A DNA stretch of 64,000 nucleotides from the NCBI GenBank assembly GCA_947044365.1, contig OX345643.1, positions 946,001 through 1,010,000 on the forward strand. The letters run 5' to 3'. The first letter of the stretch is position 1; every line of letters begins with the position of its first letter. The notes below the pieces were generated by a model. The model saw only the letters and a program-made list of their open reading frames with translations. It ran no database searches and was not told the DNA's origin. The position numbers and the translations under genes are program-made. This DNA is from Petrosia ficiformis. Taxonomy: Eukaryota > Porifera > Demospongiae > Haplosclerida > Petrosiidae. Shown here one piece after another: positions 2,227-51,802 of this stretch.

Positions 2227-5200
2227 ATGAATGGTTTTGTATTGTTTGTCTTTTTTATTATCAGTGATCTGATTATATCAGGTTAGTACATTATAATGTA
2301 TGGTAATGACATTTTAATAGGATCATAATTATGTAGATACATATACATACATAATATCTTTCACTATTATAGGAGAATCATGTACTAAAGGATTCATGGA
2401 TTATGAATTACTGATACAAAAAACTGAACAAATAGGAATAAATGATGGTAGAAGTGATCTTCATGGTAATCGACTAGGAAGTGAAATACATTCAATTATG
2501 CCCAGTTTGGAGTTCAATTGTTCTGGAACTATTACTGGTTTTCTATTAGGTGTGGATGTTAGGATTAGAAATGAATATCCTACTATCTGGTTATGGAATA
2601 AGACTGATGAAACAACTTATACTCGTGTTGTTGATAGTTCAGTAGAAATTATACTTGGTCCATCTAATTTCAGTACTGATGGAGTTTATCAATTCAGTTT
2701 ATCAACTCCTCTTCAATTCACTGCTAATCAAGTGTTGGGAATATATCAACCAGTTAATGGAGACAGTGTGGTTAGAGTTTATTATCAGGAGTATAATGGT
2801 CAGAATATTTATGAAACTATTAATGAAAATGAGTATACACTTGATGATGGAAACATACGAAGTAATAGAAGACCTCTCATCTATCCAGAAACAAGTAAAA
2901 TATTAATATTAATTAAGATATTTATTATTTTATCATTTAAATCATGATATTTCTCTTAGATTCTCCTCAGTGTATCAGTGGATTCATATCTTCAGATGAA
3001 ATCAAAATACAAGCAAGAGAGATCACAAGAGTGAGTGGATATAATAACGATGAAAGATACTTTCCAGATATTGGTTTCACATGTAATGGTAATATCACAC
3101 ATATAATAATTGGAGCAGAAGACCAAAATGGAATAGAATTCTCACAAATTCGTTTCTGGAAACTGTCAGATGGAGGAGAATATGAACAGACAGGAACAAA
3201 CTATTCACTTGTATATAATGATGCTAATGATTCTTCAACTACTAACCTAAGGTGGTATAATCTCTCTCAACCAATACAAGTTGAAAATGGAGATGTATTA
3301 GGTATATTTCAGCCTAGTGAGATGGACAGTGACTTGATATTAAATTTTCAAGCGAACAGTGGACCACCAAATTATGATGCGAATGGAAATTTGAGCAATC
3401 AAAATCGCTATCCACTTGTGTCTGTTATATTTGGTAAGTATTTACATAACAAATTAACAATCATGTATAATGTATAATTTTTGGCTTTAGAAACAATATC
3501 TACAATCATTAGCTCTAGTACCATGAGTTCTAGTACCATGAGTTCTAGTACCATGAATTCTACTTCAAAGACATTTACTAGTAGTAGTATTAGATCTACT
3601 ATGAGTTCTAAATCTAAAACCACCAGTTCTCTCTTAAGTAATACAGCTGAAGCTACGAGTCATAATATTATCACAAGTTCTATAACTTTATCTGAAGTTA
3701 TGAGTTCAACCAGTATGAGTTCTACATTTGATGGTATGAATTCTATCACAAGTTATTATGTATGTAATAATAATAGAGATATAGTATTTTACAAATCATA
3801 CCGTATTTTTGGTTTAAAGCAACTTTAAACACTATATGAATTCTGTTTCATGTATTGAGGTGTCCATTGAAATCCTCTGACAGAGTAATGATTATAACAA
3901 CTCTGGGGCTTCATTTTTGGATAGGTATATAGGTGATTTAAATATGTTAAGCACCTCTGTCTTTATCAAACTACTTGTAAACTTGAGGCTTCGCCCTCTG
4001 TTTACAAATAGTGTGGAAACCTTCAATCAGTGTTTAACCTATATAGAATATTGCTGAATATTTCTCAAATTTAACAGATAAAAACAATTATTCAAAATGA
4101 ACTACTCTATAATTATACACTTACTTAAGTTCAAAGGAAAGAGTAACATACTCTACATTTGTTGGAGTGCAGCCACTACTATGCTGCAACTGGCTTTAGC
4201 TTCACCTTAGAGTACAGTTGACTGTACTCTAATATATACATAAGATTCTTCTTTCATAATTTATAATTTTATTATCTTTGCACACTCTGCTAGTTAGTAA
4301 TACTGCATGTATCTGAAAATATGAATCTTTCTATACCAAAAATCACAAATTGTAAATTAAGACAATCTATGGAAGGAATATTCCACTGGATTAGGTCTTG
4401 AGCCTAGTATGCCATACGTTCGAATATATGTATACATGGAGTAAGCAATAAACAGGTAATACAGTGTCCTAAGGACAATGAAACATGTATGGGTACTATA
4501 GCATGCATGGAAGCACAGAAAAGAACATGGACTCGTGTTTGTTGGATAACTATGATATTATAATATATTTCATATAAAGGACTTCCTGTACAGTTGGAAT
4601 TAATAGCTGGAGTTGGAACAGGTCTTCTTCTGTTGTCTATTATTATATTTATTATTATACTGATAATAATATTAATAGTGAAACATAGGAAAAGAACAAC
4701 ACTTATTAACATCAGTGAGAAAGGTATATAAGTATGCTGTATAACTTTTTGCATGGAGTATATATATAATAAACAGTACATAATATTCAACCATAATCTT
4801 ACACTATAGCTGTTTAAAAACACGTTGACCTGCTGAATGTTTTGAATACGACAATAAGCTGTAACTCTGTAACAGTTCAAGAATTACTATAACTCTTATA
4901 AAAGTGATTGATATGCTTTGTGTATGAAACAAATACAACATACATAATCAAATTATTACAACAACAATATAGACTATATACATGACATACAATTATACTT
5001 TCTTCCTCCTGCAAATATAATAATATTCCTACCTATAGAAGATGAAAATGTGATCATTGATGATAATCCAGCCTATCAGTTACACACAGTATCAAGTATG
5101 AATAGCACAAACACTATATATAGAAAATGTACATGTAACTATAACATATTGCAATTAGTATGTGATAATCCATCTTAGTATAAAAACATTGTAGTTTGCA

Positions 5201-7487: not shown

Positions 7488-10400
7488 ATGAATGGTTTTG
7501 TGTTATTTGTCTTGTTTATTATCAGTGATCTGATTATATCAGGTTAGTACATTATAATGTATGGTAATGACATTTTAATAGGATCATAATTATGTAGACA
7601 TATATACATACATAATAATTATCTTACACTACTATAGGAGAATCATGTACTAAAGGATTCATGGATTATGAATTACTGATACAAAAAACTGAACAAATAG
7701 GAATAAATGATGGTAGAAGTGAACTTCATGGTAATCGACTAGGAAGTGAAATACATTCAATTATGCCCAGTTTGGAGTTCAATTGTTCTGGAACTATTAC
7801 TGGTTTTCTCTTAGGTGTGAATGTTAGGACTGCAACAGATAGTAGAGATGAATATCCTACTACTATCTGGTTATGGAATAAGACTGATGAAACAACTTAT
7901 ACTCGTGTTATTGATAGTTCAGTAGAAATTATACTTGGTCCATCTAATTTCAGTACTAATGGAGTTTATCAATTCAGTTTATCAACTCCTCTTCAATTCA
8001 CTGATAATCAAGTGTTGGGAATATATCAACCAATTAGGCTAGACAGTGTGGTTAGATTTTATTATCAGGAGTATAATGATCAGGATATTTATGAAACTAT
8101 TAATGAAAATGAGTATACACTTGGTGATGGAAACATACGAAATAATAGAAGACCTCTTATCTATCCAGAAACAAGTATAATGATAATTAAGATATTTAAT
8201 ATGTTATCATATTAATCATGTTATATATTTTAGATTCTCCTCAGTGTATCAGTGGATTCATATCTTCAGATGAAATCAAAATACAAGCAAGAAAAATCAC
8301 AAAAGTGAGAGGATATAATGACGATGAAAGATTCTTTCCAGACATTGGTTTCACATGTGATGGTAATATAACACATATAATAATAGGAGCAGAAGACCAA
8401 AATGGAACACAATTTGGAATAGAATTCTCACAAATTCGTTTCTGGACACTATCAGATGGAGGAGAATATGAACAGGCAGAAACAAACTATTCACTTGTAT
8501 ATAATGATGCTAATGATCCTTCAACTACTAACCTAAGGTGGTATAATCTCTCTCAACCAATACAAGTTGAAAATGGAGATGTATTAGGTATACTTCAGCC
8601 TATAGAGCTGGACAGTGACTTGATATTGTATTATCAAATTAACAGTGGACCACCAAATTATAATTCAAATGGCAATATATTAAATAATGATAATGATTAT
8701 CCTCTTGTGTCTGTTATATTTGGTAAGTATTTACATAACACATTAACAATCATGTATAATATATAATTTTTTACTTTAGAAACAATATCTACAATCATTA
8801 GCTCTAGTACCATGAGTTCTAGTACCATGAGTTCTACTTCAAAGACATTTACTAGTACTATATAGTATTAGATCTACTATGAGTTCTAAATCTAAAACCA
8901 CCAGTTCTCTCTTAAGTATTATAGCTGAAGCTACGAGTCATAATATTATCACGAGTTCTATAACTGTACCTGAAGTTATGAGTTCTACCAGTATGAGTTC
9001 TACATTTGATGGTATGAATATATATGTATGTAATAATATAGAGATAGAGTATATTACCATAGTTACAAATCGTACTGTATTTTTGGTTTAACAAGTACAA
9101 GTACACACATCATCATAAAAACTAATGACAATGAGTGATACTGGTCTTAATTTCAATGTATAGTTTCAGCTTGAGTACTATGTATTACATGACAGAGAAT
9201 AATAGTAACTTCATTTCAGATTTTATAATAGCAATTTTGCATGTCGTGTACATAATAAGTATGTATCTGGAGTAAGCAACAGGTAATACAGTGTCCTAAG
9301 AACATTGAAACATGTATAGGTACTATAGTATGCATGGAAGCACAGAAAAGAACATGGACACTGTTTGTTGGATAACTATGATATTATATCAATTCTTATA
9401 AAGGACTTCCTGTACAGTTGGAATTAATAGCTGGAGTTGGAACTGGTCTTCTTCTGTTGTCTATTATTATATTTATTATTATAATGATAATAATATTAAT
9501 AGTGAAACATAGGAAGAGAACAACACATATGAACATCAGTGAGAAAGGTATATAAGTATGATGTATAACATTTTGCATGGAGAAAACAATATATATATAT
9601 ATAATAAACAGTACATAATATTCAACCATAATCTTACACTATAGCTGTTTAAAAAAGTGTTGACTTGATGAATGCATGATAATAAACTGTAACTCTGTAA
9701 CAGTTCAAGAATTACTATAACTCTTATAATAGTGATTGATATGCTTTGTGTATGAAACAAATACAACATACATAATCAAGTTATTATAACAACAATATAG
9801 ACTATATACATGACGTACAATTATACTATCTTCCTCCTGCAAATATAATAATATTCCTACCTATAGAAGATGAAGATGTGATCATTGATGATAATCCTGC
9901 CTATCAGTTACACACAGTATCAGGTATGAATACCGTAAACACTTCATATATAATCATATACAGCAAATGTACACAAACATCATCACTTTCATCAAAATGT
10001 AATCAAGATACAAAACAGTAATTATTGTAATTTGTAAAAATTCTTAGTTTCATGCGGCGAGGATCATTTTTTTAATCTCTCAGATAAACATGTGATTACT
10101 GACGACAATCCATCTTATAATATACATACAGTATCAGGTATAGATAATACATTGATAATTAGTCTCAGTGATGATCATTCTTGTAATTTCACAGATGGAC
10201 ATATGCTTACTTATGATTATGATATTATACACACAGTATCAGGTACAATATTGTATGCTTGAAAATGTAATGTAATCAATATTGATTTCACAGATGAACA
10301 TGTGATTACTGATGATAATCCATCTTATAATATACATACATCAACAGGTATAATAATATATCAGGGTTCTATATCAGGGTTCTATATCAGGGTTATATAT

Positions 10401-13056: not shown

Positions 13057-16000
13057 CACCACTCATTAGAGTGTATAGTTAATACACTGAAAAATAATGC
13101 ATTATTTTGACCTTTAGGACGTTTTCATTGCAATTTTATTTCCTGAGACTTGCCAATTTGTTTTTTCTTTGGTAGGTAATATTTACAAGTATACTGTATA
13201 GTATCTATTATTATTGACTAGTAGATGAAGTACATGCCATGAAATAGCACAGTAACAAAATAATACAATGTATATAATTATAATTATAATTATAATTATA
13301 TGTATAACTATAATGTATACATAAATATAAATATATATATATGTATATAGCATAGTATTAGGTACAACCTGTGATGTGTTATTATCATTCTCCCAATCTA
13401 TCATCTATACTTCTATTATAAGTACATTCTAGAGTAATTAGTATGTACATGACTTTGTATAATACACCAGCTATACTCATTATATATCATTGTAAAAATG
13501 AATTACAATTGGTTATTTTAACAGAGCAGTATAGTTACCTCGTTTGCATGCTTACATACTGGCTCTTTTTAAAATATAAAGTTATGTCTAGTTATATAAT
13601 TATTGTTATATTTAAAGTAAAAAGGATCAGGTCATGCAATCATGAATATGCATAATCAGCAATACATTCACTGTAAAAAGTAATAGGTTATTTTAACATT
13701 CAGTTGGTTACAGGAGTTTCAATGCAACTTTATTTTCCTCCATGCTGATTTATTTTTCCTGCTAAGTATTATTTACAAGTCACAGTTCATTTGATCTTGA
13801 TCTGTATTGACTAGTACATGTCATAATAAGGCATATGGTAACAAACATATTATCACTGTAAAAATTAATTTGTTATTTAGTTGTTACCTCAGTTGCATGT
13901 ACATTCATACATAATATATAGTTAGAAACTTGAAATACGAGGATAATTAACATTTTGTCTGGTTATAAATAATATAGCTATATATATATATATATATAAT
14001 AAAAAGAAATGTTATGACTACAGTCATGATTGTACATTCTACATGCGGTAGTAGGGTGTATATTGGTACATACATTCTGATTGCATGACTATATAGTCAA
14101 TGTAGTTTTACTATAACAAATTGTTCCTCCTATGTATGATATCTCATTTGTTATCAATAACAGCCTCTTTATATGGTAGTAGGGTGTATATTGGTATGTA
14201 CATTCCTGACTGCATGATTAGTGATAACAATTTTTTTACTATAACCAATAATTTGAAACAAATCATTTCTTCCTATGCATAGTATCTCATTTTGAAGTTA
14301 TCAATAACAGCTTCTTATTATGGTAGTAGGGTGTATAATTATATATGCATTTATGACTGTAGTCATAACATTCCTTTTTACCCTACACCTATATTATAAC
14401 CAGATAAAATGTTAATTATCCTTGTATTTAATGTTTCTAACTATATATTGGAAATGTAAGTGGAACTGAGGTAACAACAGGTCTGAATGTAGCTATATAC
14501 GTAAGCATAGTATTATTGGTGCAACCTGTAGTTTATTATTAGAATTCAAATCATAACATCTGCAAAAACAACAGATATTACTAGCTCATTCCAGACTAAT
14601 TAAATTTGTACATGAATTTGTACTTATATATAGCAAATAACATATGATGTACTCCCACAAATATTTGAAAATTCAGCCACATTGTATTGTTTTTGTTACC
14701 ATTCTTTATTATGTACTTTATATACAAGTTATTATAGATCAAAATCAAAAGAAATAAATTACTACTTGTAAACATTACCTAGCTAGACAAAAAAAGCAGC
14801 ATTGATTTATTATATAGTCTCAGGAGAAATTGAAACTCATGTAACCAAATGAGGGTTAAAATAACCCATTCATTTTTACAGTGAACTTGTTATTATTACT
14901 TCCGCTATATAGCATCAATCTATTGCTGCTGTCCATTTACCTATAATCCTCTTATTCCCTTCAGTCTCATCAATGAGTTCAATTAACTCTACATCAGAAA
15001 CACAGGAAGGTACGGTCTTGTATTTTCTAAATATTTCCTCATGAAACGTAGTTACCTACTCGTCGACAAACATGTCATTGAAACTAAATGCGCAAAGAGT
15101 TACTACATATTAACATTACAATTAATATTTTGGACTAAATACAATTCAAGCATGTGTCATCATAATAATATGGAGAACTGATTGTAGTGCAAATTAATGT
15201 AACACTATAGTGATTGAAGTTATATAATAATCATTGCATTTTGATCAATTCTTACAAAGGATTTCCTGTACAGTTGGAATTAATAGCTGGAGTTGGAACA
15301 GGTCTTCTTCTGTTGTCTATTATTATATTTATTATTATACTGATAATAGTATTAATAGTGAAGCATAGGAAAAGGACAACACATAGGAACTCCAGTAAAG
15401 GTATATAATTATAATATAAAGTAATGTCACTACTAGAATAGCACATACACACATGCAAACACATATAATTAATGATTTTTGTGTTTGTATATAAATGTCA
15501 GTATACTATAATTTAAACAGTATACAGTAAAAAAATACACATTTACTAACATTGTAATCATTAGGTAATTTTCTGATGATGAACAGTTTTTTACTGACAC
15601 TAGTAGTTTTGTGCTATATCATGTCATAGAAATTACTATTATTATAACTATTTCTAACTTCCCACAGATGAACATGTGATCACTGAAGATAATCCATCTT
15701 ATAATATACACACAGTATCAGGTATAGAAACATACATAATGTATTGATAATCAGTGTCAAAGATGATCAATTTTTATACACTTACAGATGAGCATATGCT
15801 CACTTATGATTATCCATCATATGATATTATACACACGGTATCAGGTACATTATTGTATGACACATCAGGTTGAAAATGTTACATAATCTGTCTTAAATCC
15901 CACAGATGAACATGTGACCACTGATGACAATCCATCTTATAATATACACACAGTATCAGGTATAGATAATATATTGATAATTAGTCTCAATGATGATCAA

Positions 16001-34461: not shown

Positions 34462-37400
34462 ATGAATGGTCATGTATTGTTTGTCTGGGTTTGTATCAGT
34501 GATCTGATTGTATTAGGTTAGTTTGTATAGTATATGAATACATTGTGTAATTCCAAAGACATATCACAATCCAATATAATTAGTTTTTAATGTTATGTAG
34601 TATATATATAAATTCATTATTCTAGGAGAATCATGTACTAAAGGATTCATGGATTACGATTTACTGGTACAAAAAGCTGAACAAATAGGAGATGGTCATC
34701 ATTATCAATTAAGACTAGATGACAACAATTGGATTATGCCTAGTCTGGAGTTCACTTGTTCTGGAACTATTACTGGTTTTCTTTTAGGTGTTGATGTTAG
34801 GACTGCAACTAATCACAGAAATGAATACCCTACTATCTGCTTGTGGAATAAAACTAATAAAACAGATACTTATATACCTGATAAGTCAGTACAAGTTTTA
34901 CTTGGTCCATCTAATTTCAGTACTGAAGGAGTTTTTCAATTCAGTTTATCAACTCCTCTTCGATTCACTGCTAATCAAGTGTTAGGAATATATCAGCCAG
35001 ATGATGATGATAGTGTGGTTAGATTTTATAATCAGGAATATAATGGTCAAGATATTTATGAAACTGATTCCAATAGCTATGGGTATACACTTGATGATCA
35101 AGAAAGTGATATGAGAACTCTCATTCATCCAGAATCAAGTATATATAGATAATGTATGATTCACATGTTTATAAACTATATACTCTTCCATATAGATTCT
35201 CCTCAGTGTATCAGTGGATTCATATCTTCAAATGAAATCAAAATACAAGCAAGAGAAATTACAGAGGTGGAAGGGTATAGTAATGATGAAACATACTTTC
35301 CAGACATTGGTTTCACATGTGATGGTAATATCACACATATAATAATAGGAGCAGAAGATGATGATGGAACAGAATTATCACAAATTCGTTTCTGGAGACT
35401 ATCAGATGGAGGAGAATATGAACAGACAGGATCATCCTATTCACTTGTATATAATGATGGTAATGATCCTTCAACTACTAACCTAAGGTGGTATAATCTC
35501 TCTCAACCAATACAAGTTCAAAATGGAGATGTATTAGGTATATATCAACCACATCAGCACGACAATGATATGAGATTATACTACCAGGAGAACAGTGGAC
35601 CACCAAATTATAACAGCAATGGGAATGTCAATACTGAAAACAATTATCCACTTGTCTCTGTAATATTTAGTAAGTATTTATATGAAACATTAACAATCAT
35701 GTAATTTTTGCATAATATCCAGAAGCAATCGCTATCAGTTTGAGTTCTACAACTGAACCTACTAGTTCTATCATGAGTTCTATATTTGATTCTACAAGCA
35801 CCATTATCAGTTCTACATATACTATCACAAATTTGATATCTAGTGTCTCTGTAAACTCTTCTACTTTTGCTGTAGATATCTCTTCAACTGGAACTAGTAA
35901 GTATCCACTTCCTGAGACAGAATATATGTTCTACATCTAATTTCACTATAATTAAATTACTACATGTACGTACTAAAATAGACCCTAATGATTGCCTTCA
36001 AACTTGAGTTAAGTACGCCATAGCATAATTTACAGTATCAATTGTGTTTAATACAGTTTCAATTCTTCGTTGTTGTCTATTGTAGGCAAAGTGCTGAAAA
36101 TAATTTCACAAAAATCATTGTTATTTCATCGCTGTGTTTACCTATAATTCTCTTACTCCCTTCAGTGTCATCCATGAGTTCAATGACCTCTATATCAGAA
36201 ACACAGGAAGGTACGATCTTGTATTATACAAATGTTTCTTTATGAAACACACCTGCCATACTGATCGACAAACATGTCGTTGAAATTATAACAAAACAGC
36301 GTTTTTTTTACATAACAACATTACAATATTTTGAACTAAATACAATTCAAGCATGTGTCATTGTAAATAGGAATATGGACAAACTGAAATTAATATAATG
36401 ATTATAATTTATTTCTATATTTGATCAATTCTTATAAAGGATTTCCTGTACAGTTGAAATTAATAACTGGAGTTGGAACCGGTCTTCTTCTGTTGTCTAG
36501 TAATATATTTATTATTATACTGATAATAATATTAATAGCGAAGCATAGGAAAAGAACCACACTAGTACTTATGAATTCCAGTAAAGGTATAAAATATTGA
36601 TGTATAAAACTATGCATGCAGTAGATTATACATATGACAACTGATAAGCTGGATTGGCATCAATGAGAACATGTTCATCTGTAGTTATGAAAATTCAATG
36701 AGAAGAAAATAAGGCAGTATTAAGTATGAATAGCATATAGCCACATTCACGCACACATACACATAATTAATAATTTTACATGTATATGTATATACATTTG
36801 AGTATACTATAATTATTGAATATAATGATACGCCATCTTATAATATACATACAGCATCAGGTATAGCACATAATGTAGGATAATTTGTCTCGGTGATGAT
36901 CAATTGTTAATCTCACAGATGAACATGTGACTGCTAATGATAATCGATATGCACACAAAAAATATAGATTACACACATAATTATTGTGGTTTTATCAATT
37001 ATTAACTTCTCACAAATGAACACGTAATTACTAATGTTACTCCATCTTATAATATACACACAGTATCAGGTATAGAAACATGTATTGATAATTAGTTTCA
37101 ATGATAATCAATTTTATATTCCCACAGATGAACATGAGAATAATCCATCTTATAATATATACACAGTATCAGGTATAGAAACATGCATAATAAGTTTCGA
37201 TGATAATCAATTTTATATTCCCACAGATGAACATGTAATTACTGAGAATAATCCATCTTATAATATATACACAGTATCAGGTATAGAAACATGTATTGAT
37301 AATTAGTTTCAATGATAATCAATTTTTACATTCCCACAGATGAACATGTAATTACTGAGAATAATCCATCTTATAATATATACACAGTATCAGGTATAGA

Positions 37401-38023
37401 AACATGCATAATGTATTGATAATAGGTTTCGATGATAATCAATTTTATATTCCCACAGATGAACATGTAATTACTGAGAATAATCCATCTTATAATATAT
37501 TCAAAGTATCAGGTATAGAAACATGCATAATGTATTGATAATAAGTTTCGATGATAATCAATTTTATATTCCCACAGATGAACATGTAATTACTGAGAAT
37601 AATCCATCTTATAATATATACACAGTATCAGGTATAGAAACATGCATAATAAGTTTCGATGATAATCAATTTTACATTCCCACAGATGAACATGTAATTA
37701 CTGAGAATAATCCATCTTATAATATATTCAAAGTATCAGGTATAGAAACATGCATAATGTATTGATAATTAGTTTCAATGATAATCAATTTTTATATTCC
37801 CACAGATGAACATATAACTACTGATGATAACCCATCTTATAATATACACACAATATCAGGTATGCGTGCATTATTGTACTTCTAAGTTTAAACTATTTCA
37901 ATTCATTTTGCTATCATGATTAATACTACAGGTGAACATTTGGCTACTGATGATGATAATACATACACATATATACATGTTTCGGATGAACCTGATATCG
38001 AAGAAGAATATGATTATGTATAA
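34462..38023 (+). CDS. Gene H: two-domain type I receptor with seven NPSY tail units
   Basis: Exons 34462-34516, 34626-35138, 35196-35669, 35723-35896, 36166-36210, 36440-36586, 37128-37172, 37227-37280, 37340-37393, 37459-37512, 37578-37631, 37686-37739, 37806-37859, 37932-38023; 622 residues. Signal MNGHVLFVWVCISDLIVL; ectodomains 19-189 and 190-347; stalk 348-405 (TTEPTSSIMSS) and 406-420 (SETQEG); TM exon 421-469 with a less hydrophobic SSN inside the usual segment. The tail has seven NPSYN cassettes, four ending IYTVSG, two IFKVSG and the last IHTISG, then YTYIHVSDEP and a C-terminal EYDYV. The region 36590-37127 holds dead cassettes (one inverted, one without an acceptor, two with stops) that I excluded. 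Confidence 0.85.
36641..36707 (-). pseudogene. Inverted NPAY tail cassette in gene H
   Basis: The minus strand reads CTACAGATGAACATG, then GATGCCAATCCAGCTTATCA, matching the first tail exon of gene F (26531-26597) including its polypyrimidine tract and acceptor. The flanks outside this 67 nt (GGCAGTATTAAGTATGAATA) remain in normal orientation. A small inversion has removed the exon from the H transcript. Confidence 0.75.
36833..37070 (+). pseudogene. Three decayed tail cassettes in gene H
   Basis: At 36833-36860 the second half of a cassette (CCATCTTATAATATACAT) remains without an acceptor. At 36919-36980 an intact acceptor leads into DEHVTANDN but then loses the NPSY core and meets a stop. 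At 37018-37070 a full NVTPSYNIHTVSG unit keeps its donor, but the acceptor CACAG has become CACAA. Confidence 0.65.
37085..37800 (+). repeat. Tandem exon-intron array in the H tail
   Basis: Six to seven copies of a 99-120 nt unit made of one intron (with TTTCGATGATAATCAATTTT) and one NPSYN exon. Units ending YTVSG and FKVSG alternate at the 3' side (37340-37512 and 37578-37739), so the last expansion was of a two-exon block of about 230 nt. Confidence 0.85.
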
Positions 38024-41600: not shown

Positions 41601-43832
41601 TGAAGATATAGTCAGGGTATTAGTATTGCCTATACATTGCCTATACAGCTTACACAATATTTTTCAGGCTTTGCAGATTACATTATTGTGTAACTTCATA
41701 TACTTTCGGCTGAATGTAAAGCACACGAACATTACAATAATTAACACAGTACCATGTGTAATAAGTAGATAGATAAATACAACTATATATTTCACGCAGA
41801 CAGTATCAGATTGGATTTGCATTTAGGCCATTTGGGTTATGAAATATAGGCATATAGGCAAATTGCTTTATAGTGTTATATCATTCTATTTAATTTATCA
41901 GACCCAATCCTTTGATGTTTCTACATGTATACCAGCCCTCTTGGGGTACTATGCAACTAGAAACATCTTCAACCTCTTGGCAGGCCTGATATATCAAATT
42001 GAGATCTGCCAACCAACCTTACTATAAATATTCAATATATTATAATATATATATATTTATATAATATATTATAATAATAATTTTCAACTATAGCTCTATT
42101 ATGTAATTTAACAAGTCACTGGAAAGCTAAAAGGAAATAGATTCATGTTATAATTACCCCGTTAACAATGATTATATAATTTCTCACAGATGAGTATTAA
42201 TGATACTTCATCATTATAACTATGTTAAGATATAATATAGTATACACACAGTATCAAGTATATAGACATTATTCATATTTAGTTTCATTGTGATCATTTC
42301 TTAATATAACAGATGAAGTTGATGAACATACAGTACAGGTCAGATGCAACTTAAGCCACACTCGCGTGCTACTCGTACTGCACACCCGAGCGCGATCAAG
42401 AGTACACGTGAGTGCACAAAATGTAGCAACTCGCGAGTGTGGCTTAAGTTGCATCTGACTTGTACTGTACATATAATTATGATTATTCATTCAACATTGC
42501 ATCAGGTATAGACAAGATATAGATATCATTATAATTTGACACATCAACTCGAAAATATATAACAATATCAACTATTAACCTCGCAGATAAACATGTTACT
42601 ATAGCTGTTACTCCTTCATACAATGTCCATACAGTGTCAGGTATAGACAATGTGTAATTATAATTACTAATATTTATGTAACCATTGAACAAAATTTAAT
42701 CTCACAGATGAACATATCACTACTGCTGTTAATCTTTCCTACAATATGCATATAGTATCAGGTATAGACAATGTATGATTGTAGCTAATAACAATTATGC
42801 AATTCCAATGTTAATTTCACAGGGGATAATGTAACTACAGTTGATAATCCATCCTATAATATGGACATTCTATCAGGTATATACAAGATATAAATATCAT
42901 TATAATTTGACACATCACCATGATATATTACAAGATCATTCATTAACTTCACAGATGACCATGTTACTACTGGAGATAATCCTTCGTACAATATACACAC
43001 AGTATCAGGTATAGACAATGTACAATTGTAACTACTAACAATTATGTAACTCTCACAGATGAACATATTACTACTGCTGTTAATCCTTCGTACAATATAC
43101 ATACAGTATCAGGTATAGACAATGTACAATTGTAACTACTAACAATTATGTAACTCTCACAGATGAACATATTACTACTGCTGTTAATCCTTCGTACAAT
43201 ATACATACAGTATCAGGTATAGACAATGTACAATTGTAACTACTAACAATTATGTAACTCTCACAGATGAACATATTACTACTGCTGTTAATCCTTCATA
43301 CAATATACATACAGTATCAGGTATAGACAATGTACAATTGTAACTACTAACAATTATGTAACTCTCACAGATGAACATATTACTACTGCTGTTAATCTTT
43401 CTTACAATATGCATACAGTATCAGGTATAGACAATGTATAGACATAGTTTAATTTGTATTCCTATGTTATGCATACTGTGTCAAGATATAAATATTAATT
43501 CTTAATCTCATAGATGAACATGTGATCATTTATGACAATCCTTCCTATAATATACACACAGTATCAGGTATGAACAATGTATATATTACTAACAATTATG
43601 TAACTGAAATTTCATTCTCACAGGAGGACATGTGACTACTGATGCTAATCCAGCCTATAATATATCAGGTATAGAATATTGTAATTATAAGTTCTATTGA
43701 TGTTTGATTCAACTTAAATTATACATCATGATTATTACAGGTGAACAATTGACTGATGATGATAATACAATCTCATATGTATTTGGTTTGAATGAACTTG
43801 TTGTTGAAGAAGAGTATGATTATGTATACTGA
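38619..43832 (+). CDS. Gene I: two-domain type I receptor with ten tail units
   Basis: Exons 38619-38673, 38787-39302, 39376-39846, 39902-40084, 40506-40607, 41133-41270, 42587-42640, 42708-42761, 42823-42876, 42955-43008, 43059-43112, 43163-43216, 43267-43320, 43371-43424, 43514-43567, 43624-43668, 43741-43832; 695 residues. Signal and ectodomains (19-190, 191-347) are closest to H. Two stalk exons (348-442). The TM exon (443-488) is more diverged (KLIVGLVGSVLLLVSIII). Ten tail cassettes follow, seven with NPxY and three altered (TPSY, NLSY, NLSY). The final exon is also diverged (ISYVFGLNEL instead of YSYVHVLDEP) and ends EYDYVY. Two further cassettes at 42190 and 42313 are dead, the second split by a foldback element. 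Confidence 0.85.
41562..41880. repeat. Second copy of the 29970-30322 TIR element, inverted
   Basis: Begins AGGGTTGCACTTATACTAG and carries GGGATCTGAATAGGCACC, TACAGCTTACACAATATTTT and a decayed far end (GGCATATAGGCAAATTGC, TATAGTGTT). It lies in the intron after the TM exon of gene I. Confidence 0.6.
42313..42508 (+). pseudogene. Tail cassette of gene I disrupted by a foldback insertion
   Basis: A normal acceptor (TATAACAG) leads into D-E-V-D-E-H, then a foldback element (42331-42468) intervenes, and the end of the cassette (DYSFNIASG with a normal donor) resumes behind it. Reading through hits a TGA inside the element, so the exon must be skipped, which phase 1 borders allow. The exon at 42190 (DEY-stop) just upstream is also dead. 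Confidence 0.65.
42331..42468. repeat. 138-nt foldback MITE
   Basis: Arms GTCAGATGCAACTTAAGCC and GGCTTAAGTTGCATCTGAC are reverse complements extending about 35 nt, with a GC-rich loop containing CGCG, CCGAGCGCG and GTACACGTG. Its composition is unlike the surrounding DNA. Confidence 0.8.
43009..43424 (+). repeat. Four-copy 104-nt exon-intron tandem array in the I tail
   Basis: Four units, each a 50-nt intron (with ATTGTAACTACTAACAATTA) plus a 54-nt exon, follow one another with almost no differences. The first three encode VNPSYNIHTVSG, the last VNLSYNMHTVSG. Confidence 0.9.
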
Positions 43833-44469
43833 ATAAGACTTTAGTTTTCCATCATTACTCTACTTACACTTTGTTTCATTGTAGTGCAGTAACTATCATC
43901 TTATTTATTTTGTTAATGTGATTTGTACATCAATTGTTATATTCATGTTTGTCTCTGTATGTATGTATGACATGTAGTTATAATGACCTTATAATTATGT
44001 AATGTTGAATGTTTCAAGGTAGTTTATATGGCATGCACGTGCATAGTAGTTATGATTATTTGTGACCTTTATTGTACACAATTCACATTTCCCTCAGAAG
44101 AAAAAAACCAATAAAAGATTTTGTCCAATGCATGAAAAATAACAAGCAAACTATGTATTTGTATGGTTATTATATAGCACTCTCCCTGAATAAACTTACA
44201 AACTTAATCCAAACATAAACAAACATAAAATATGTTATAGTACACTAATAATATAATGTATTGATATAATGCATTGGAATGTTCTAAATAAGCTAGAAAA
44301 ATACTTAATGGTGGTCTGATCTTCATAGACAATGGTCTGATATGATCAACCACTCCTATCTGCTACAGTATAGCATCATACAAAGCTGGCATCATGTGAT
44401 ATGATACGTCAGTCACATATATTCACAGACCACCTGTGATCAGCTTTTTGTACGACTGATTCGTACACA
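43833..44469. other. Intergenic region between genes I and J
   Basis: AT-rich, no coding signal. A sequence just before gene J (GATACGTCAGTCACATATAT) resembles a CRE-type half site (ACGTCA), but this is weak evidence. No TATA box at a convincing distance. Confidence 0.5.
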
Positions 44470-46323
44470 ATGTTTTATGTGAAGCAATGGATTCAACACG
44501 GACTGTTATCAGTGGTCATATTGCTAACTCTACTACTGAATCTCATCACTGCATACTCAACATGTAATGTTAGACCCGATCCCTTCAATCAAACAACCAG
44601 TGGGAAAGCTCTTGGCATTACCTTCTATATTGATCTCAATAATCCGTTTACTTGTTATGGTATCATTAAGCAATGGAGATTATGTTATAAGAGTAGTCCA
44701 GGTGCAATATCAGACACCATAAACATAGGCGTCTATCAAGCTGATGGAAATAGTTACGTCAAAAAGGGCTCCAATTCCATTAGTTTACAGTTACAAGACA
44801 AGGATTGTCTTTATATAAATGCCGATCCAGAATTAGTGGTACAAGAAGGATATGTAGTTGCATTCTATGCGACTTTAGTTTACATTAAGTTTTTTGATGA
44901 CGAAGAAAATGGTTATCTATATAAATCTGTAGCATTTCCAAAGTCAATCTCTCAAGGGGTTCTGATTAAGACAACACATCCTTATGCACCAAAATTACAA
45001 GCATATATTGAGACAGTAAGCACCACCACAACTACCTCAACTTCTTCAACTACTACCAGCAACACTTTAATAGTGAATACTATCAGCTCAATAACAATTC
45101 AATCTTCCCCACAATCATTCTCACCAACGCCCTTCACAACAATTTCACCATCACCTACACCATTTCCATCATCAAATAGCAACTCTGGAATACCTCCACC
45201 AGATCTTGAACCCAACCAATGCTTCCTTGGAGTGAACGAAGCTTTTGTATCCTTTTTCAAGCAAAACTCCTCGTTGTTTCTGAATCATCTCCAACCAGCT
45301 CAATGTGATGGTAGGCTAGTTAGATGGGAATTTTGTCACAAGTACATAGAAACCTTGTCTCAGATACGATTAGGGGTATGGCGTCCATTAATTGAAAGTG
45401 AATCATTTTTACCTATAGGAGAAAATGAAATATTTATTGGACCAAGAAACATAACACACTCTAAAGAGCTTCTGGTGTGTAGAGTAATTGATGCTAACAT
45501 TACAAACCCAGTGAGGGTAGGAGATCTCATTGGATTTATTACTTCTGAAATTTTCATGGCATTCGCTGATGAGAAAAACAATGTGGTAAAAGGAGATGTA
45601 GATGAAACACCAGAGGTAGGCAATGCTCAAACATTTCCATTACTAAGAGGGATTATTGGTAAGTTTTTATAAGCATGCAATAAAATTCACAGTTTATTGA
45701 ACAATTGTCGGCATAAGCTTTGTTTTTTTTTTCGTACAGACCTGAGTCTGGAAGTAAATAACAAATTATTAGAATTACATATCTCTTTTTAGATGTGTCA
45801 CCTTCTATTAGCCAGTCACCTTTGCCTTCTCCAAATCCTTCTGTCACATTACAATTCTTCTCTCCCTCTCCAACAATCACTTCTAATTCTCGTGGAGATA
45901 ATAGCACAGTCATAACAGTAGTAGGCAGTATAGTTGGTGTGTTGGCAATTGCACTAATTGTAATACTGCTTACTGTAAGTTTCATAGCAGTAAGACTACA
46001 CTGTAGCTATAGATTTAGGACTCCTCGATTACATCAAAGAAGTGAGTATAATGAATTTTTAGATTTTAAAAAATAATTAATCTCCTTTTGATATTGTAGA
46101 TGATATGATTTATAATGTGAATTACACTCCAACAAATATTAATGAAGGTAAAACCTAATTTTGTAATTAATAACACAATCACAGTGCTATTTTATTCTCA
46201 GTTATTATCGGTAACCAGAAAGAATCACTGGGATTAAAGAATAATCCATCATATGCCACAAATGACTTGGGCAAACCTCCAGACGTGGGAGACATAAGTG
46301 ACCATACCTATGAAAGCATCTAA
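44470..46323 (+). CDS. Gene J: divergent two-domain receptor with HTYESI tail
   Basis: Exons 44470-45658, 45793-46041, 46100-46147, 46202-46323; 535 residues. One large exon encodes the signal peptide (LLSVVILLTLLLNLITAYS), a first Cys-containing domain (to about residue 180), a Thr/Ser/Pro linker and a second domain (about 255-396). Both domains show a pattern like the cluster ectodomains: C-Y/D-G-x-I/L-x-x-W (FTCYGIIKQWRLC, AQCDGRLVRWEFC), then IGVYQ or LGVWRP, then a V-x-x-G-(Y/D) strand. Exon 2 has a Pro/Ser stalk and a TM segment (VVGSIVGVLAIALIVILL) of its own type. The tail contains MIYNVNY, NNPSYA and the C-terminus DHTYESI. An alternative acceptor at 45740 leads to a stop, so 45793 was chosen. 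Codon use and GC are higher than in the tandem cluster. Confidence 0.85.
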
Positions 46324-46653: not shown

Positions 46654-48244
46654 TTACAGATTGTTCTGAACATAGGTATATGCATTATCATTATCCTCAG
46701 CAGTCGTATGTTCACCTGTGAGATAAAAAAACTCAATCATTTTTTAGATATTTCGTATATATACATTATATCACGTGGACCTGATGTGAATATATTATAA
46801 GATGGATTGTCATGAAAACTCATGTGTTTGTCTGTGAGAAGTTATAATATTATTTTTCAAACAATAGTTTTCTGATTATCTCATATATAGGCCAAACTGA
46901 AAATAAATGTTATAGGTATTTCTTTGTCTGTTCCACACATAGTCTCAATACAAGTTACACAGACTACTTTTATCAATACCTGTTACTGAATGTAATTGAT
47001 AGGCTGGATTAGCAGTGGTGATCACATGATCACTTTTGAAATTAGATTGCTGTTTCAGCGATACTAAAAATGATAGTATTAATTCATTCTTTGTAGTTTG
47101 TAATAATTAGTACCTGTAGTTGTAGAATTCATATTTGTGGTTCTCCTCCTATTTTTTATCAGTAGTAGTATTATGAGTATAGTAGTAAATAAAAGAATAA
47201 AAAAGACAAGAAGACCGGCTCCAACTGCTATGAATTCCAATTGTACTGGATCTGGAGATATATATATATGTATTAGTTAAAGCACCGGTGCGAGTGTTGT
47301 ATGGAAAATATAGCACGAGGGGTGGGGTCGAGAAGCTCATAAAGCACGAGGCGCTAGGCGTAGCCGAGTGCTTTAATTTATGAGGCTTCGAGACCCCACC
47401 CCCAGTGCTATATTTTCCAAGACAACACGAGCGAAACCGGTGCTTTAACTGGTTTATAGTACAGTATTAGTACTTCGGATTAATACAATGGAGAAGAAGA
47501 ATGACGTACTTAGCGTTCTTGCACTAAACCCGAGGTAAGCGCGTTGTTTTCTAGTGTTATAAACAACATCCGGAAAATATGGAACAGGATGTGGTCAAAA
47601 AAGTGTGCTATATGGAAAATATAGAACAGTCGGTACCTTTGATGTTAGGCGTCAAAGTGCTATAAATATATAATATAATTATATATATATATAATTATAT
47701 ATATATAATATATATATATATAGTATGCTACCATGGCAACCGTTTGATGTGGTTAGGTCTTATATTTTGTATATAGACCCGGGTGTGAATCTTTAATCCA
47801 CCAGCATACTATATATTGTATATAGTACACTTACAATTCTTATATACCACAATATAAACCCTTGGTTTAGTGCCTTCGGATGTGATATAGCCCTCGCAAG
47901 CTCGGGCTATATCACATCCTCAGACACTAAACCTCGGGTCTATATTTTAACTGTAAGTGTACTATATAATATACATATATACATTGGTATATTTACAAAT
48001 TAGGAAGTCACAAAAGAAATATACCGCATGTAAGATCATATAATTGAACTTATAAGTACATAATTATATTATATTGCACTTGCTTTGATATACATGTTAA
48101 ATGCTGTGAACAATATTATACCTTCTCTTGTTTCAATTGTAGAACTAATGGTGATGTTTAGAGAACTTACCAAATCAACTTAACTGTGTAGTCAACGCAT
48201 AATTATATTGCATGTGGGGTATAATGTGATTTCCTCATTTGTAA

Positions 48245-48279
<35 letters not shown>

Positions 48280-49754
48280 TATATGGGTATATTTAAATTA
48301 TACAGGAAGTCACAAAAGAAATATACCCACCTGCAATATTGAACTTATAATTCCATAATTATATTATATTGCACTTGCTTTTATATAAATATGACAGCAT
48401 GTTAAATGATCTAAGACAGCACAATTTAAGTGAAAAATTAGCAATATTATACCTTCTGTTGTTTCAACTGTGGAACTAATGGTGATCCATAGAGAACTCA
48501 TCATCAGATTCGTAGAAAGAAAGCTACTAGTAGTGTGTACTAGAGTCATTGGAAATAATTCCTGTTCTGTGTTGAGCACTAAATAAAATATAGTTATTAT
48601 TATAATATTATAATATTTCTGTGTATGATGGATAGCTAGTTTTTGTAGAATTCTACGACACTTCAATAGCAATTAAAGGTCCACTAGATTTAACTGTGTA
48701 GGTGGCACATAATTGTATTACAGGTGTGGATATTTCTTTTGTGACTTCTTAATTTGTAAATATAGCCATATATATACATGTATATGTATATAATTATTAT
48801 ACATAATATATATATGAATGGATGGATAATAAATATACTCACATGTAGTGCAGTTAGTGTCCTCTCCTGTGTATCCTTCAAGGCATACCATGTTACCTTG
48901 GTTGTCACATGTATAATGACCTCTTTTTCCATCAGTTGATTCACAAAACACACTACATTGTGAACCATAATAGCTATCAGCACAATACAAACGAAAATCA
49001 ATTTGAAGCATATTGAAGAGTCCATAGACCTCATGGATACTGGAAACATTATCACTTACAGTAAACATACCATCAAATATCATTGTACTGACAAGATCAT
49101 CATTTTCATCATCATCAGGTGTGACATCACTAGGATCACTGTCGTTATCGTAAACTCGGGTTCTAAACTGTAATTGACCCTATTGTTATAGATAACATAT
49201 AATTAAATATAATAGCATAGGCATTGGTACTAATAATAATACATTGAACAGCACTACTTGCGTGTGAAACTGAATGCAGATACCAATAATATTAACATTA
49301 GCATCACAGAATTATGATTACTGCTTGCATTACATTTTCAGGCCATTGTTGCCCATGGAACACTAGTGGATTAGGTACTCCAGGACTTAGGTCCTCTCCT
49401 ATTTCAAATACCAAATCATCTCCTCCAAGAACATCTGTCTCATACTCCCCATATGGGCATGAGTCTGCATCAGTCTCGCCAAGATCTTGCAAGCAGATTA
49501 AAAAGTAGTTGTCACATTGTTTACTGCATATTCCATCTTTTAGACTGTCACTATCACAGCATAGTATGGTATTAATATTATCTACTGAAATGCTATTCTG
49601 ATTTACATATCTGTGTACTCCAACTTCCAGAGTCCATTCAGAATTGACCTGATGAGAAGATAGAGACCAAAAGGACTAAAATTAAAATGTGAAATTATTT
49701 AAAACTCACTTCTGAAAGTAAAAGCATAAAATGGAATAAAAGTACTGACCCCAT
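46654..49754 (-). CDS. Gene L: Delta-like (MNNL + DSL) protein with cluster-type TM and NPxY tail
   Basis: Minus-strand exons 49754-49710, 49648-49322, 49179-48843, 48578-48453, 47251-47114, 47063-46980, 46831-46781, 46715-46654; 389 residues. Signal peptide MGSVLLFHFMLLLS. Residues 16-130 look like the N-terminal domain of Notch ligands: WTLEVGVHRYVNQ, then CDNYFLICLQDLG, CPYGEYETDVLGGDDLVFE and VFHGQQWPENV. The DSL domain at about 190-234 has six cysteines spaced C-x8-C-x3-C-x11-C-x7-C-x10-C with YYGSQCSVFC, GHYTCDNQGNMVCLEGYTG. No EGF repeats follow. Instead come a Ser/Thr stalk (STVETTEG), the TM exon (PVQLEFIAVGAGLLVFFIL), NPAYQ and NPSYN cassettes and YTYVQNNL. All of these match the receptor cluster. 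The first two introns are phase 0, the rest phase 1. Known DSL proteins activate Notch on a neighbouring cell; here that is an inference. Confidence 0.8.
47275..47449. repeat. Foldback element in gene L intron
   Basis: Arms GTTAAAGCACCGGT... and ...ACCGGTGCTTTAAC are complementary over about 80 nt with mismatches (shared blocks GGAAAATATAGCAC and GGGGTGGGGTC). GC-rich compared with its surroundings. Non-coding. Confidence 0.8.
47717..47970. repeat. Repeat family R2, copy 1
   Basis: Contains CATGGCAACCGTTTGATGTG, then a hairpin built from GATGTGATATAGCCCTCGCA and its complement around GCTCG, then GTAAGTGTACTATA. Copy 2 lies at 50274-50545 with about 90 percent identity by eye. Non-autonomous element, no frame. 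Confidence 0.8.
47971..48452. repeat. Duplicated segment in gene L intron with dead stalk exon
   Basis: 47990-48150 and 48285-48480 are copies of one another (GGAAGTCACAAAAGAAATAT, ATTATATTATATTGCACTTG). Each ends in a stalk-exon sequence. The copy at 48445-48578 is the functional exon; on the minus strand the copy ending near 48123 reads ...TTGATTTGGTAA from its acceptor and stops at once. A third fragment (TTTCTTTTGTGACTTCTT) is at 48735. Confidence 0.6.
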
Positions 49755-49828
49755 ATAGAAAGTTACACACTTCCATGCGACTAATATAAATGCAGAGATT
49801 TGTGCTCCGAAATTCGTATTCTCGCAAA

Positions 49829-50268
49829 TAAACCCCCACCCCTTTCCAGATCTCAAAAAAAAAAAAAAGGGTGGAGTCTGTTCGCGAGACTATATATGCT
49901 TCCTGGAGGCAATCATCAGTAAAAATTGTACTGGCCTGACAGAGACTTGGTCAATCAATATCCACCATCGTAGCAGTCATAGAGTTGTTTGTATTGGCTG
50001 CAAGTTATATATATATATATATATATAACTTGCAGCCAATACAAACAACTATATATAACTTGCAGCCAATACAAACAACTCTATGACTGCTACGATGGTG
50101 GATATTGATTGACCAAGTCTCTGTCAGGCCAGTACAATTTTTACTGATAATTGCCTCCAGGAAGCATATATAGTCTCGCGAACAGACTCCACCCTTTTTT
50201 TTTTTTTTTTTTTGAGATCTTGAAAGGGTTTTTTTTTTTTTTTGAGATCTTGAAAGGGGTGGGGTTTT
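49829..50268. repeat. Large near-perfect foldback element
   Basis: Arms of about 165 nt (49870-50017 and 50028-50190, outer blocks GGAGTCTGTTCGCGAGACTA and TAGTCTCGCGAACAGACTCC) are close to perfect reverse complements around a (TA)n centre. The ends carry poly(A)/poly(T) and CCACCCCTTTCCAGATCTC / GAGATCTTGAAAGGGGTGG. The inner block TTGCAGCCAATACAAACAAC is partly repeated at 50055 and 50550. It starts 75 nt upstream of the start codon of gene L. Confidence 0.9.
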
Positions 50269-50273
50269 ATTTA

Positions 50274-50545
50274 TATATATATAGCATGCTACCATGGCAA
50301 CCGTTTGATGTGGTTAGGTCTTATATTTTTGTATATAGACCTGTGAATCTTTAATCTATCAGCATACAATATATTGTATATAGTACACTTACAGTTCTTA
50401 TATAAAACAATATAAAACCTTGGTTTAGTGTCCTCGGATGTGATATAGCCCTCGCAGGCTCGGGCTATATCACATCCTTGGACACTAAACCTCGGGTCTA
50501 TATTTTTGTATATAAGACCTGTAAGTGTACTATATATATTACATA
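50274..50545. repeat. Repeat family R2, copy 2
   Basis: Second copy of the 47717-47970 element in the same orientation, with the same internal hairpin (GATGTGATATAGCCCTCGCA) and GTAAGTGTACTATA end. Confidence 0.8.
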
Positions 50546-51250
50546 TATAACTTGCAGCCAATACAAACAACTCTATGTCTATAGCTAATATGAAATTACT
50601 CTCGAATCAACTTGAAATTTGAAATTTAAAAACTTCCTATGAGCTTTGCCAGCCCTCCAGTGGATTGTGCACTATAGTAAGGACCATCATATGCATATGA
50701 TTAGAGTTAGTTTTGGCTGACACATATACATGTATTCTTACGTACTTGCATATATAATATTATATATTAGTGTTGTTTTAATTAACTATAACTCAACTAA
50801 AACCATTTTTTAAAGACATTGTGACTTTTAGTTAAATAAACTATAACTACATTACAAGTCTAAGTAAGCCTAAAATTGATTAACTATAACTATAGCTAAA
50901 AGTGGTCATTATTAATTGTCATACTAAAACAACAATAAAATTATGTACATAAATGTTTTTATGCAAATTGTGACCTCATGTGGATGTCAATAGTTGTACC
51001 ATTAAATGTACAAGAAAGAACCATTAGGTATGCTGTAAAAACAGTGTACAGGTATTGGTTATGATAACCACAATATCATTCATATGCAGTGGCTATATAC
51101 ATTGATATTGTAAACCCGATATCATATACATCAGTGTAATTTTGATAGGAACATAATTCCTAATTGATACTGTAATGTGAAGGCAGCACCATCTACTTTC
51201 AGTTGTAGCTTATATTGTATTTGCAAGTGAGGTGATAGCTTCACTCAAAT
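50546..51250. other. Spacer upstream of gene K
   Basis: Contains repeat sequence of the TTAGTTAACTATAACTAAAA type (50770-50910), also found at 52850-53245 and 56170-56420, and otherwise AT-rich DNA. No ectodomain exon for gene K was found here on the + strand. Confidence 0.6.
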
Positions 51251-51802
51251 ATGGCTGGAATTATTTATCCTACAAATTCAGTACCGCCTCAGTTAGTAAA
51301 ACCAACTAACTATTACACTAGTGATGGCTCCAATGACTTTCATAAACACTCTAGTTCACTGGTTCTTATTACTGTTTGTGTGGTATGTAGTGGTCTGCTG
51401 CTTATTCTTACTGCTCTATTCATCATCGCAGTCATATGTGGCTATAACAAGTGGAGGAGGCAGAGAACAAATATACTAGATGTCTCTCTGGCTCACAGAC
51501 CTAGAGGTATTTCATTCATATACTGCTTTCCTACAATGTACATAGAGCTTCTTCAAATTGGTGAAGCAGAGCATAGTATGATATACAATGAAATTTACAA
51601 CAAGAAGCATGTTAGTATTGGTACATACGTATGTAATTATGCATGTATCATAACTATTATATAATTATGTGAACATCACATTCTATTTTCATTAGTAATT
51701 GTTGATGGTCGGAAGTATAAATTGACCATGCAACAAAACAAAGCATACAAGAAACTGGAGTTTGATACTGAAAGTCTTGAGCACACCTATGAGAGCATTT
51801 AA
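51251..51802 (+). CDS. Gene K: short membrane protein with ITAM-like tail
   Basis: Exons 51251-51506, 51570-51620, 51696-51802; 137 residues, introns phase 1. About 36 extracellular residues (no signal peptide seen), a TM segment at about 37-63 (LVLITVCVVCSGLLLILTAL), then a basic stop (KWRRQR). The tail has MIYNEIYN, then YKKL and, after ten residues, YESI at the C-terminus. YxxL-x10-YxxI falls within the usual spacing range of ITAM motifs (6-12). MIYNEIY and HTYESI match the tail of gene J (MIYNVNY, HTYESI), so K is probably a J-type gene reduced to TM and tail, or its ectodomain exons were missed. The acceptor of exon 2 (GTGAAGCAG) is weak. There is no charged residue in the TM such as adaptor proteins like DAP12 have. 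Confidence 0.65.

Follow-up and report, generated by a model that had tools for sequence, protein, structure and literature searches.

A predicted natural chimera of a Delta-type head and a receptor-family tail in the sponge Petrosia ficiformis

On the minus strand of a 64-kb stretch of the genome of the demosponge Petrosia ficiformis (contig OX345643.1 of assembly GCA_947044365.1, here C8, positions 946001-1010000; hereafter the window, to which positions without a contig name refer), we describe a gene predicted to encode a natural chimera, in which a Delta-type head with MNNL and DSL domains is joined to the transmembrane (TM) exon and cytoplasmic tail exons of a receptor family that stands in a row on the opposite strand. 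This gene-level reading is well supported, and donor, recipient and join region are all visible in one sponge genome, of which our genome-wide scans took in 29 contigs (191 Mb). A preliminary description of the window had proposed that Notch-type signalling and this receptor family are linked in one locus; the link holds as gene structure, and its functional side is something we infer.

The spliced model runs in eight exons from 49754 to 46654 and encodes 385 residues in the order signal peptide, MNNL, six-cysteine DSL, short Ser/Thr stalk, TM segment, two NPxY cassettes and last exon (Table 1). All seven introns have GT-AG borders, the frame is open to a single stop, and the intron phases (0,0,1,1,1,1,1) are 0 within the head, changing to 1 where the DSL exon ends and staying so thereafter. 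A hydrophobic N-terminus and one TM segment are visible in the translation, the signal peptide being called by eye and the TM segment from translation and homology. The earlier limit of 49754 for the gene start is supported by exon 1 of an EGF-less Delta gene on contig C4 (MESVNIYQFILLLLFTE, aligned with MGSVLLFHFMLLLSE here), and that paralogue also has a donor at the position of the weak exon 2 donor (AAT followed by GTAATG).

Pfam scores agree with this model and with the preliminary account of a minus-strand gene with an MNNL-like N-terminus and a six-cysteine DSL domain in phase 0 exons. In an earlier version of the model, in which nine upstream-frame residues stood in for exon 1, MNNL scored 51.6 bits (cut-off 22.5) and DSL 47.7 bits (cut-off 24.2); the genome scan gave 46.5 and 54.1 bits, respectively, at the same place. 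The DSL cysteines (exon 3 residues 66, 75, 79, 91, 99 and 110) are invariant in all eight aligned exons. Furthermore, the head matches 12 distinct PDB sequences (DLL4, DLL1, Jagged-1, Jagged-2, delta and serrate; best E 2e-20), the match to DLL4 (PDB 4xl1) reaching 76 bits over head residues 40-211. The window gene is the only one on C8 among ten DSL matches of the whole-genome Pfam scan, and no other MNNL or DSL was found on C8 either, a result of Pfam scans and not of a direct DNA alignment of the head with the cluster. A protein search with the full model returned one protein, P0001, with MNNL and DSL repeats and no family tail, and a profile of the DSL exon returned eight, among them P0125, which is the exon of the window itself, and P0123, which is closely related to the C4 paralogue.

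The nearest head is that of the EGF-less Delta just mentioned (C4:4489498-4486593, hereafter C4b). The head at 49757-48810 aligns to C4:4489501-4488611 over 961 nt (72 %, E 2e-146), the homology beginning at 49757, 3 bases before the start codon, taking in exons 1-3 together with introns 1 and 2, and ceasing 33 nt beyond the DSL exon. At the protein level 147 of 217 head residues are identical. In a tree of 12 DSL rows, in which five of nine inner branches remained open, the two genes were sisters at 97/96, so that the phylogenetic comparison called for earlier places the window DSL with a sponge Delta. When the C8 gene was compared with seven further Delta loci, none of its head exons was matched at E <= 1e-6, just repeat-element and AT-rich stretches in L022 and L027. 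Because the homology spans introns 1 and 2, the head was copied as genomic DNA, and a retrocopy origin is rejected on the same ground. Thus, C4b shares with the window gene the signal-peptide, MNNL and DSL exons and the first two introns, but its TM exon is its own, and a single last exon, 491 nt long, carries NPNY and NPLY. Two EGF-bearing Deltas on C4 (C4a and C4c) also end in NPxY followed by NPLY, as judged by eye and unscored. The simplest reading is that NPxY...NPLY represents the older Delta tail, which was exchanged in the C8 gene; since the sister and two EGF Deltas end in this way, the swap would have retained NPxY motifs. Separately, much of the C4b TM exon is repeated just upstream of it (L019, about 9520-9670); read by eye, this copy seems to have no fitting donor ahead of its stop. 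Duplication of TM exons may occur in Delta genes too.

The other half points to the cluster. A row of genes occupies the plus strand of the window, with beta-rich modules followed by a stalk and a TM exon, then by repeated exons of phase 1/1 and a family last exon; the repeated exons, or cassettes, are mostly 54 bp long and of the type EHVITDDNPSYNIHTVS, and the last exon is of the type GEHLTTDDDNTYSYV. The TM exon of the DSL gene has the same phases (1-1) as the cluster TM exons and is 59.1 % identical to the one at 15265 and 59.5 % to those at 9409 and 4585 in amino acids (E 8e-11 to 5e-10), and up to 79 % in DNA (E 4e-26). Its score against one cluster TM exon was 123 (z 9.7; shuffled 44 +- 8) and against another 71 (z 5.6), whereas z did not exceed 3.1 for TM segments taken from five other Delta genes and from two other TM genes in the window. 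The comparison of TM exons proposed in the preliminary description therefore came out in favour of the cluster, and the cassettes and last exon match the cluster at the DNA level as well. A scan for short phase 1/1 NPxY exons gave 33 sites on the plus strand of the window and two on the minus strand, both within the DSL gene; over 141 kb from 15 other loci of the genome it gave four. At E <= 0.001 the family TM exon has at least 49 genome matches (54 candidates were scored, and such counts are minimum values for large families), 48 on C8 (0.93-2.09 Mb, DSL gene included) and one on C1, which gives the family its spread over C8:0.93-2.09 Mb (L034-L045, L050-L053) and C1:27.73 Mb (L054). Five further family loci were fetched from beyond the window and its flanks; by eye, all five have the module type of the family and not MNNL-DSL, as do the neighbours in the window. 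The DSL gene and the receptors thus have the TM exon, phase 1/1 NPxY cassettes and last exon in common, but the beta-rich ectodomain modules of the latter are replaced by MNNL-DSL in the former, which shares the family's tail but is no family member.

What could such a tail do beneath a DSL head? According to passages of PMC6912373 and PMC5675594, a DSL ligand must be endocytosed by the cell that sends the signal if it is to exert a pull on Notch, and cargo with NPxY is bound by PTB adaptors; PMC5675594 also names a recycling model. The genome of P. ficiformis encodes 9 MIB_HERC2 and 10 PTB/PID domain matches, counted as domains and unassigned to host proteins. A Notch-type locus at C4:4085159 (L046) shows two LNR matches and an open EGF-repeat frame; a TM segment was recognised by eye, in a frame that has no Pfam match, and we infer that these LNR, EGF and TM exons form one gene. 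This locus and four of the ten DSL loci (L019-L023, C4:4.48-4.82 Mb) lie within about 0.73 Mb on C4.

In our model, the 5' part of an EGF-less Delta (signal peptide, MNNL, DSL), copied at the level of genomic DNA, became linked to the family TM exon, NPxY cassettes and last exon at a point between the DSL exon and the TM exon, as the sequence itself shows. The product would be a single-pass membrane protein with an MNNL-DSL head on a short stalk, and on adjacent cells the head may bind Notch or some other partner that the C4 Delta has. The family cassettes would replace the older Delta tail and probably direct internalisation via PTB-domain adaptors and clathrin; such NPxY uptake could supply the sending-cell pull needed by DSL ligands, or else route the ligand as the receptors are routed. 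Because the predicted protein has two NPxY motifs and four lysines after the TM core (potential ubiquitin sites, counted from the translation), PTB-driven and ubiquitin-driven uptake are both possible. That the chimera acts as a DSL ligand endocytosed through NPxY/PTB sorting appears probable to us, its uptake mechanism being plausible. We only tentatively suggest a further step, namely a natural and selectively maintained tail exchange, in which the family TM segment and NPxY cassettes would serve as a plug-in endocytic tail and ligand activity would be kept via NPxY/PTB uptake. If true, selection in sponges would keep the endocytic route of a Delta and not the identity of its tail.

Alternatively, the chimera could be a receptor and not a sender, its DSL head recognising a partner and its cassette tail signalling or driving uptake in the same cell, with Notch opposite as ligand at most, or with sequestration of Notch in cis. 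With NPAY, NPSY and the last exon, the cytoplasmic part of the gene is laid out entirely as in the receptors, and the gene sits in their cluster, which would fit such a role; however, C4b and two EGF Deltas have NPxY tails too, so that NPxY is not a receptor-only feature, and a signalling or uptake role of the receptor tails is itself a presumption. We consider this alternative unlikely, though it deserves to be weighed seriously beside a ligand function.

With regard to known ligands, two EGF-like patterns gave zero matches on either strand of the 64-kb window, so the absence of EGF repeats noted at the outset was confirmed, but not its special character: six of the ten DSL loci (C4b, C4d, C8, C1a, C1b and C1c) lack an EGF-like pattern after DSL in the stretches fetched (one far and weak match at L027:7396 was set aside), and an EGF-less sponge Delta, AmqDelta4 of Amphimedon queenslandica, is already published (PMC3482393). 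Amphimedon EGF numbers are given as starting from 0 in the relevant passages of PMC2770060. The C8 gene is thus no canonical Delta and groups with the EGF-less Deltas known from sponges; what is new is the exchanged, cluster-derived TM segment and tail, the EGF-less Delta itself being known. As described in passages of PMC3482393, AmqDelta4 resembles our gene in its MNNL-DSL head, lack of EGF repeats, TM segment and predicted PTB-binding sites in the tail, and such sites are also predicted in the tails of AmqDelta2 to 5; nothing in these passages ties the AmqDelta4 tail to a receptor family, however, and the likeness is one of description. Nematostella genes (in passages of PMC2770060) and the metagenome protein P0001 likewise have DSL without EGF repeats, with MNNL present in one case, but differ in having several DSL repeats, and P0001 in having no visible TM segment or cassette tail. 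Bilaterian Delta/Jagged ligands such as DLL4 (PDB 4xl1) share MNNL-DSL with the C8 gene but, in contrast to it, carry EGF repeats. Among the titles and abstracts that our searches of mostly open-access literature listed, none reported a Notch ligand with TM segment and tail from the cluster of another receptor family. Engineered Delta/LDL-receptor tail chimeras would be a precedent, but the literature passages found do not describe them.

In the predicted gene the join sits between the DSL exon and the TM exon, which brings the stalk exon into focus. The preliminary description had the gene switching to the phase 1 stalk, TM and cassette exons of its neighbours; TM exon and cassettes bear this out in protein and DNA, but the stalk showed no clear similarity to four cluster stalks (protein z -0.6 to 0.4). 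Its DNA scored at best 83 against the whole plus strand of 1-44000 (20 shuffles: mean 73.8, max 82), and this at 37006-37140, a cassette stretch without a stalk. Both the C8 and the C4b stalk begin with LLN and otherwise have no clear similarity (protein z 0.7, DNA z 1.6). Hence neither an origin from the cluster nor one from C4 is supported by the stalk scores. The repeat element in the stalk-TM intron (Table 1) was considered as a vehicle of the head, which its two window copies, 93 % alike, flank on either side; this was rejected, as the element is high-copy and its copies are much alike, about 38 copies elsewhere among the matches listed (40 of 1371 first candidates scored) being 96-99 % alike to the intron copy. 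For the same reason the insertion looks younger than the join.

Could the two halves be separate genes, or the join an artefact of prediction? The join is read from genomic DNA, the joining intron is 1.2 kb long and contains repeats, and the donor after exon 2 is weak, all of which would allow it. Nevertheless, the phases match, the frame is open throughout, strand and order are the same, and the sole two minus-strand NPxY cassette sites of the window lie in this gene; separation would leave the TM half headless and the head without an anchor. The case raised previously, in which the DSL exons end in another 3' region with EGF repeats, is also unlikely, as the window has no EGF-like pattern and on the downstream side a convergent open frame comes to its end at 46323, some 330 bp short of the stop of the DSL gene, leaving scant room for another 3' end. 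We therefore regard two separate genes as very unlikely.

Over the MNNL and DSL exons (215 codons), C8 and C4b differ by 0.17 nonsynonymous (dN) and 0.62 synonymous (dS) substitutions per site (dN/dS 0.275, bootstrap 0.18-0.42), which indicates that the head is under constraint; the signal-peptide part gave 0.50 and the stalk part 0.69, both short and the stalk alignment doubtful. The TM exon compared with four cluster copies gave dN 0.22-0.26 and dS 0.38-0.68 (43 codons, rough). Head and tail thus separated from their respective relatives at about the same depth. A nonfunctional duplicate in decay might be suspected from the repeat insertions in the intron and the degraded stalk-exon copy (Table 1), but all eight exons are free of stops and frameshifts, the substitution ratios of head and TM exon speak against decay, and the C8 side has no excess of changes (Tajima counts of 9 specific changes in C8 and 10 in C4b with C4a as outgroup, 6 and 13 with DLL4), so that decay is highly improbable.

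As for direction, the preliminary description allowed that a Delta head was joined to the family tail or that the cluster took its tail from such a gene. The former is favoured because C4b has its own TM segment and a Delta-like NPxY/NPLY tail, and because the TM exon of the cluster is one of at least 49 matches, 48 of them on C8. The opposite direction, compatible with the position of the DSL gene inside family territory, is the least credible alternative of all, as many of the TM-exon matches lie 0.2 to 1.1 Mb away, several distant copies match the window cluster TM exon used as query better than the DSL copy does, and the sister Delta carries a different TM segment and tail.

Several points weigh against a Delta-derived chimera that works as a ligand. 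The chimera is known here from its genomic sequence; the stalk exon is assignable to neither parent, so that the join may fall on either side of it; and head constraint was measured between two copies and does not tell on which branch it acted. NPxY tails are not general among the Deltas of this genome either, as in the stretches fetched the strand of the gene is devoid of NPxY in C17a, C17b and C1c and has a single one each in C4d, C1a (downstream) and C1b. Pfam NOD was not found in the genome, a search that was silent in the controls too and is hence uninformative. Furthermore, the gene lacks the EGF repeats that bilaterian ligands carry beside DSL, and in the alignment it has Arg (KRGHY) at the DSL position where DLL4 has Phe (HFGHY), presumably the position of the Notch-contacting Phe of Jagged-1. 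According to passages of Richards and Degnan (PMC3482393), the essential binding sites of bilaterian DSL domains are not conserved in Amphimedon ligands, so that the Arg is no special mark against the C8 gene.

How much of the activity of a Notch ligand resides in its head and how much in the pull on its tail is normally asked with engineered chimeras, and here a natural one appears to have arisen. With related heads and different tails, C4b and the C8 gene form a matched pair for the study of tail function. The case would also be an example of exon shuffling, in which a signalling protein arose from a Delta and an expanding receptor cluster.

Table 1. Exons of the DSL gene and repeated elements in its stalk-TM intron (window positions).
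Feature	Position	Strand	Relationship or evidence
Exon 1: start codon and signal peptide MGSVLLFHFMLLLSE, ends in phase 0	49710-49754	-	Aligns with exon 1 of the C4 EGF-less Delta
Exon 2: N-terminal part of MNNL, phase 0/0	49334-49648	-	Pfam MNNL; 74/105 aa identical to C4 paralogue
Exon 3: C-terminal part of MNNL and six-cysteine DSL, phase 0 to 1	48843-49179	-	Pfam DSL; 76/110 aa identical to C4 paralogue
Exon 4: Ser/Thr-rich stalk, phase 1/1	48453-48578	-	Open, AG/GT borders; no clear relative on either parent side
Exon 5: receptor-family TM exon, phase 1/1	47114-47251	-	Protein and DNA match to cluster TM exons
Exon 6: first cytoplasmic cassette, NPAY, phase 1/1	46980-47063	-	81 % DNA identity over 52 nt to cluster cassettes at 5048 and 9876
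Exon 7: second cassette, NPSY, phase 1/1	46781-46831	-	Match to cluster cassettes
Exon 8: last exon, ends DNDNAYTYVQNNL then stop	46654-46715	-	Matches cluster last exons of type GEHLTTDDDNTYSYV
High-copy repeat element in stalk-TM intron	47784-47948		Second copy at 50342-50506, upstream of gene; context, no working part
Degraded second copy of stalk exon end and its intron start, in intron	48111-48172		62-nt direct repeat, 87 %

The ectodomain modules of the receptors that were tried had no Pfam match over the cut-off. Their predicted structure is beta-rich, of low confidence (mean predicted local distance difference test score, pLDDT, 65.8), and the model matched nothing in the PDB at E <= 0.001, with weak matches to several beta folds, CBM32/discoidin-like ones included; a relative of the module is the Amphimedon queenslandica protein P0106. 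Pfam TMEM154 matches on the TM parts were set aside as they fell under the cut-off of 30.3 bits (C8 15.7, C4b 26 bits). The tandem NPxY cassettes of the family have apparently multiplied exon by exon, for instance at 37128-37859 and 43059-43320.

Elsewhere in the genome, two clusters of three MNNL matches each occur on C15 (L029, L030; about 2.17-2.18 Mb) and C7 (L031-L033; about 5.02-5.03 Mb). Their DSL-like region consists of the first half alone (ITCFTGYCGTDCE... and similar), neighbouring open frames in L029-L032 contain NPAY motifs, and the two clusters possibly represent a derived MNNL family with a degenerate DSL.

The DSL gene is flanked by TM genes at 44440-46323 and 51239-51802, both on the plus strand, whose open frames finish in SDHTYESI and LEHTYESI, respectively, and so share HTYESI; the former has a 410-aa N-terminal open frame with no Pfam match and a TM segment unlike that of the cluster. 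Just upstream of the start codon of the DSL gene lie two long inverted repeats, at 49855-50208 and 50369-50544, with arms of 170 nt (96 %) and 83 nt (86 %).

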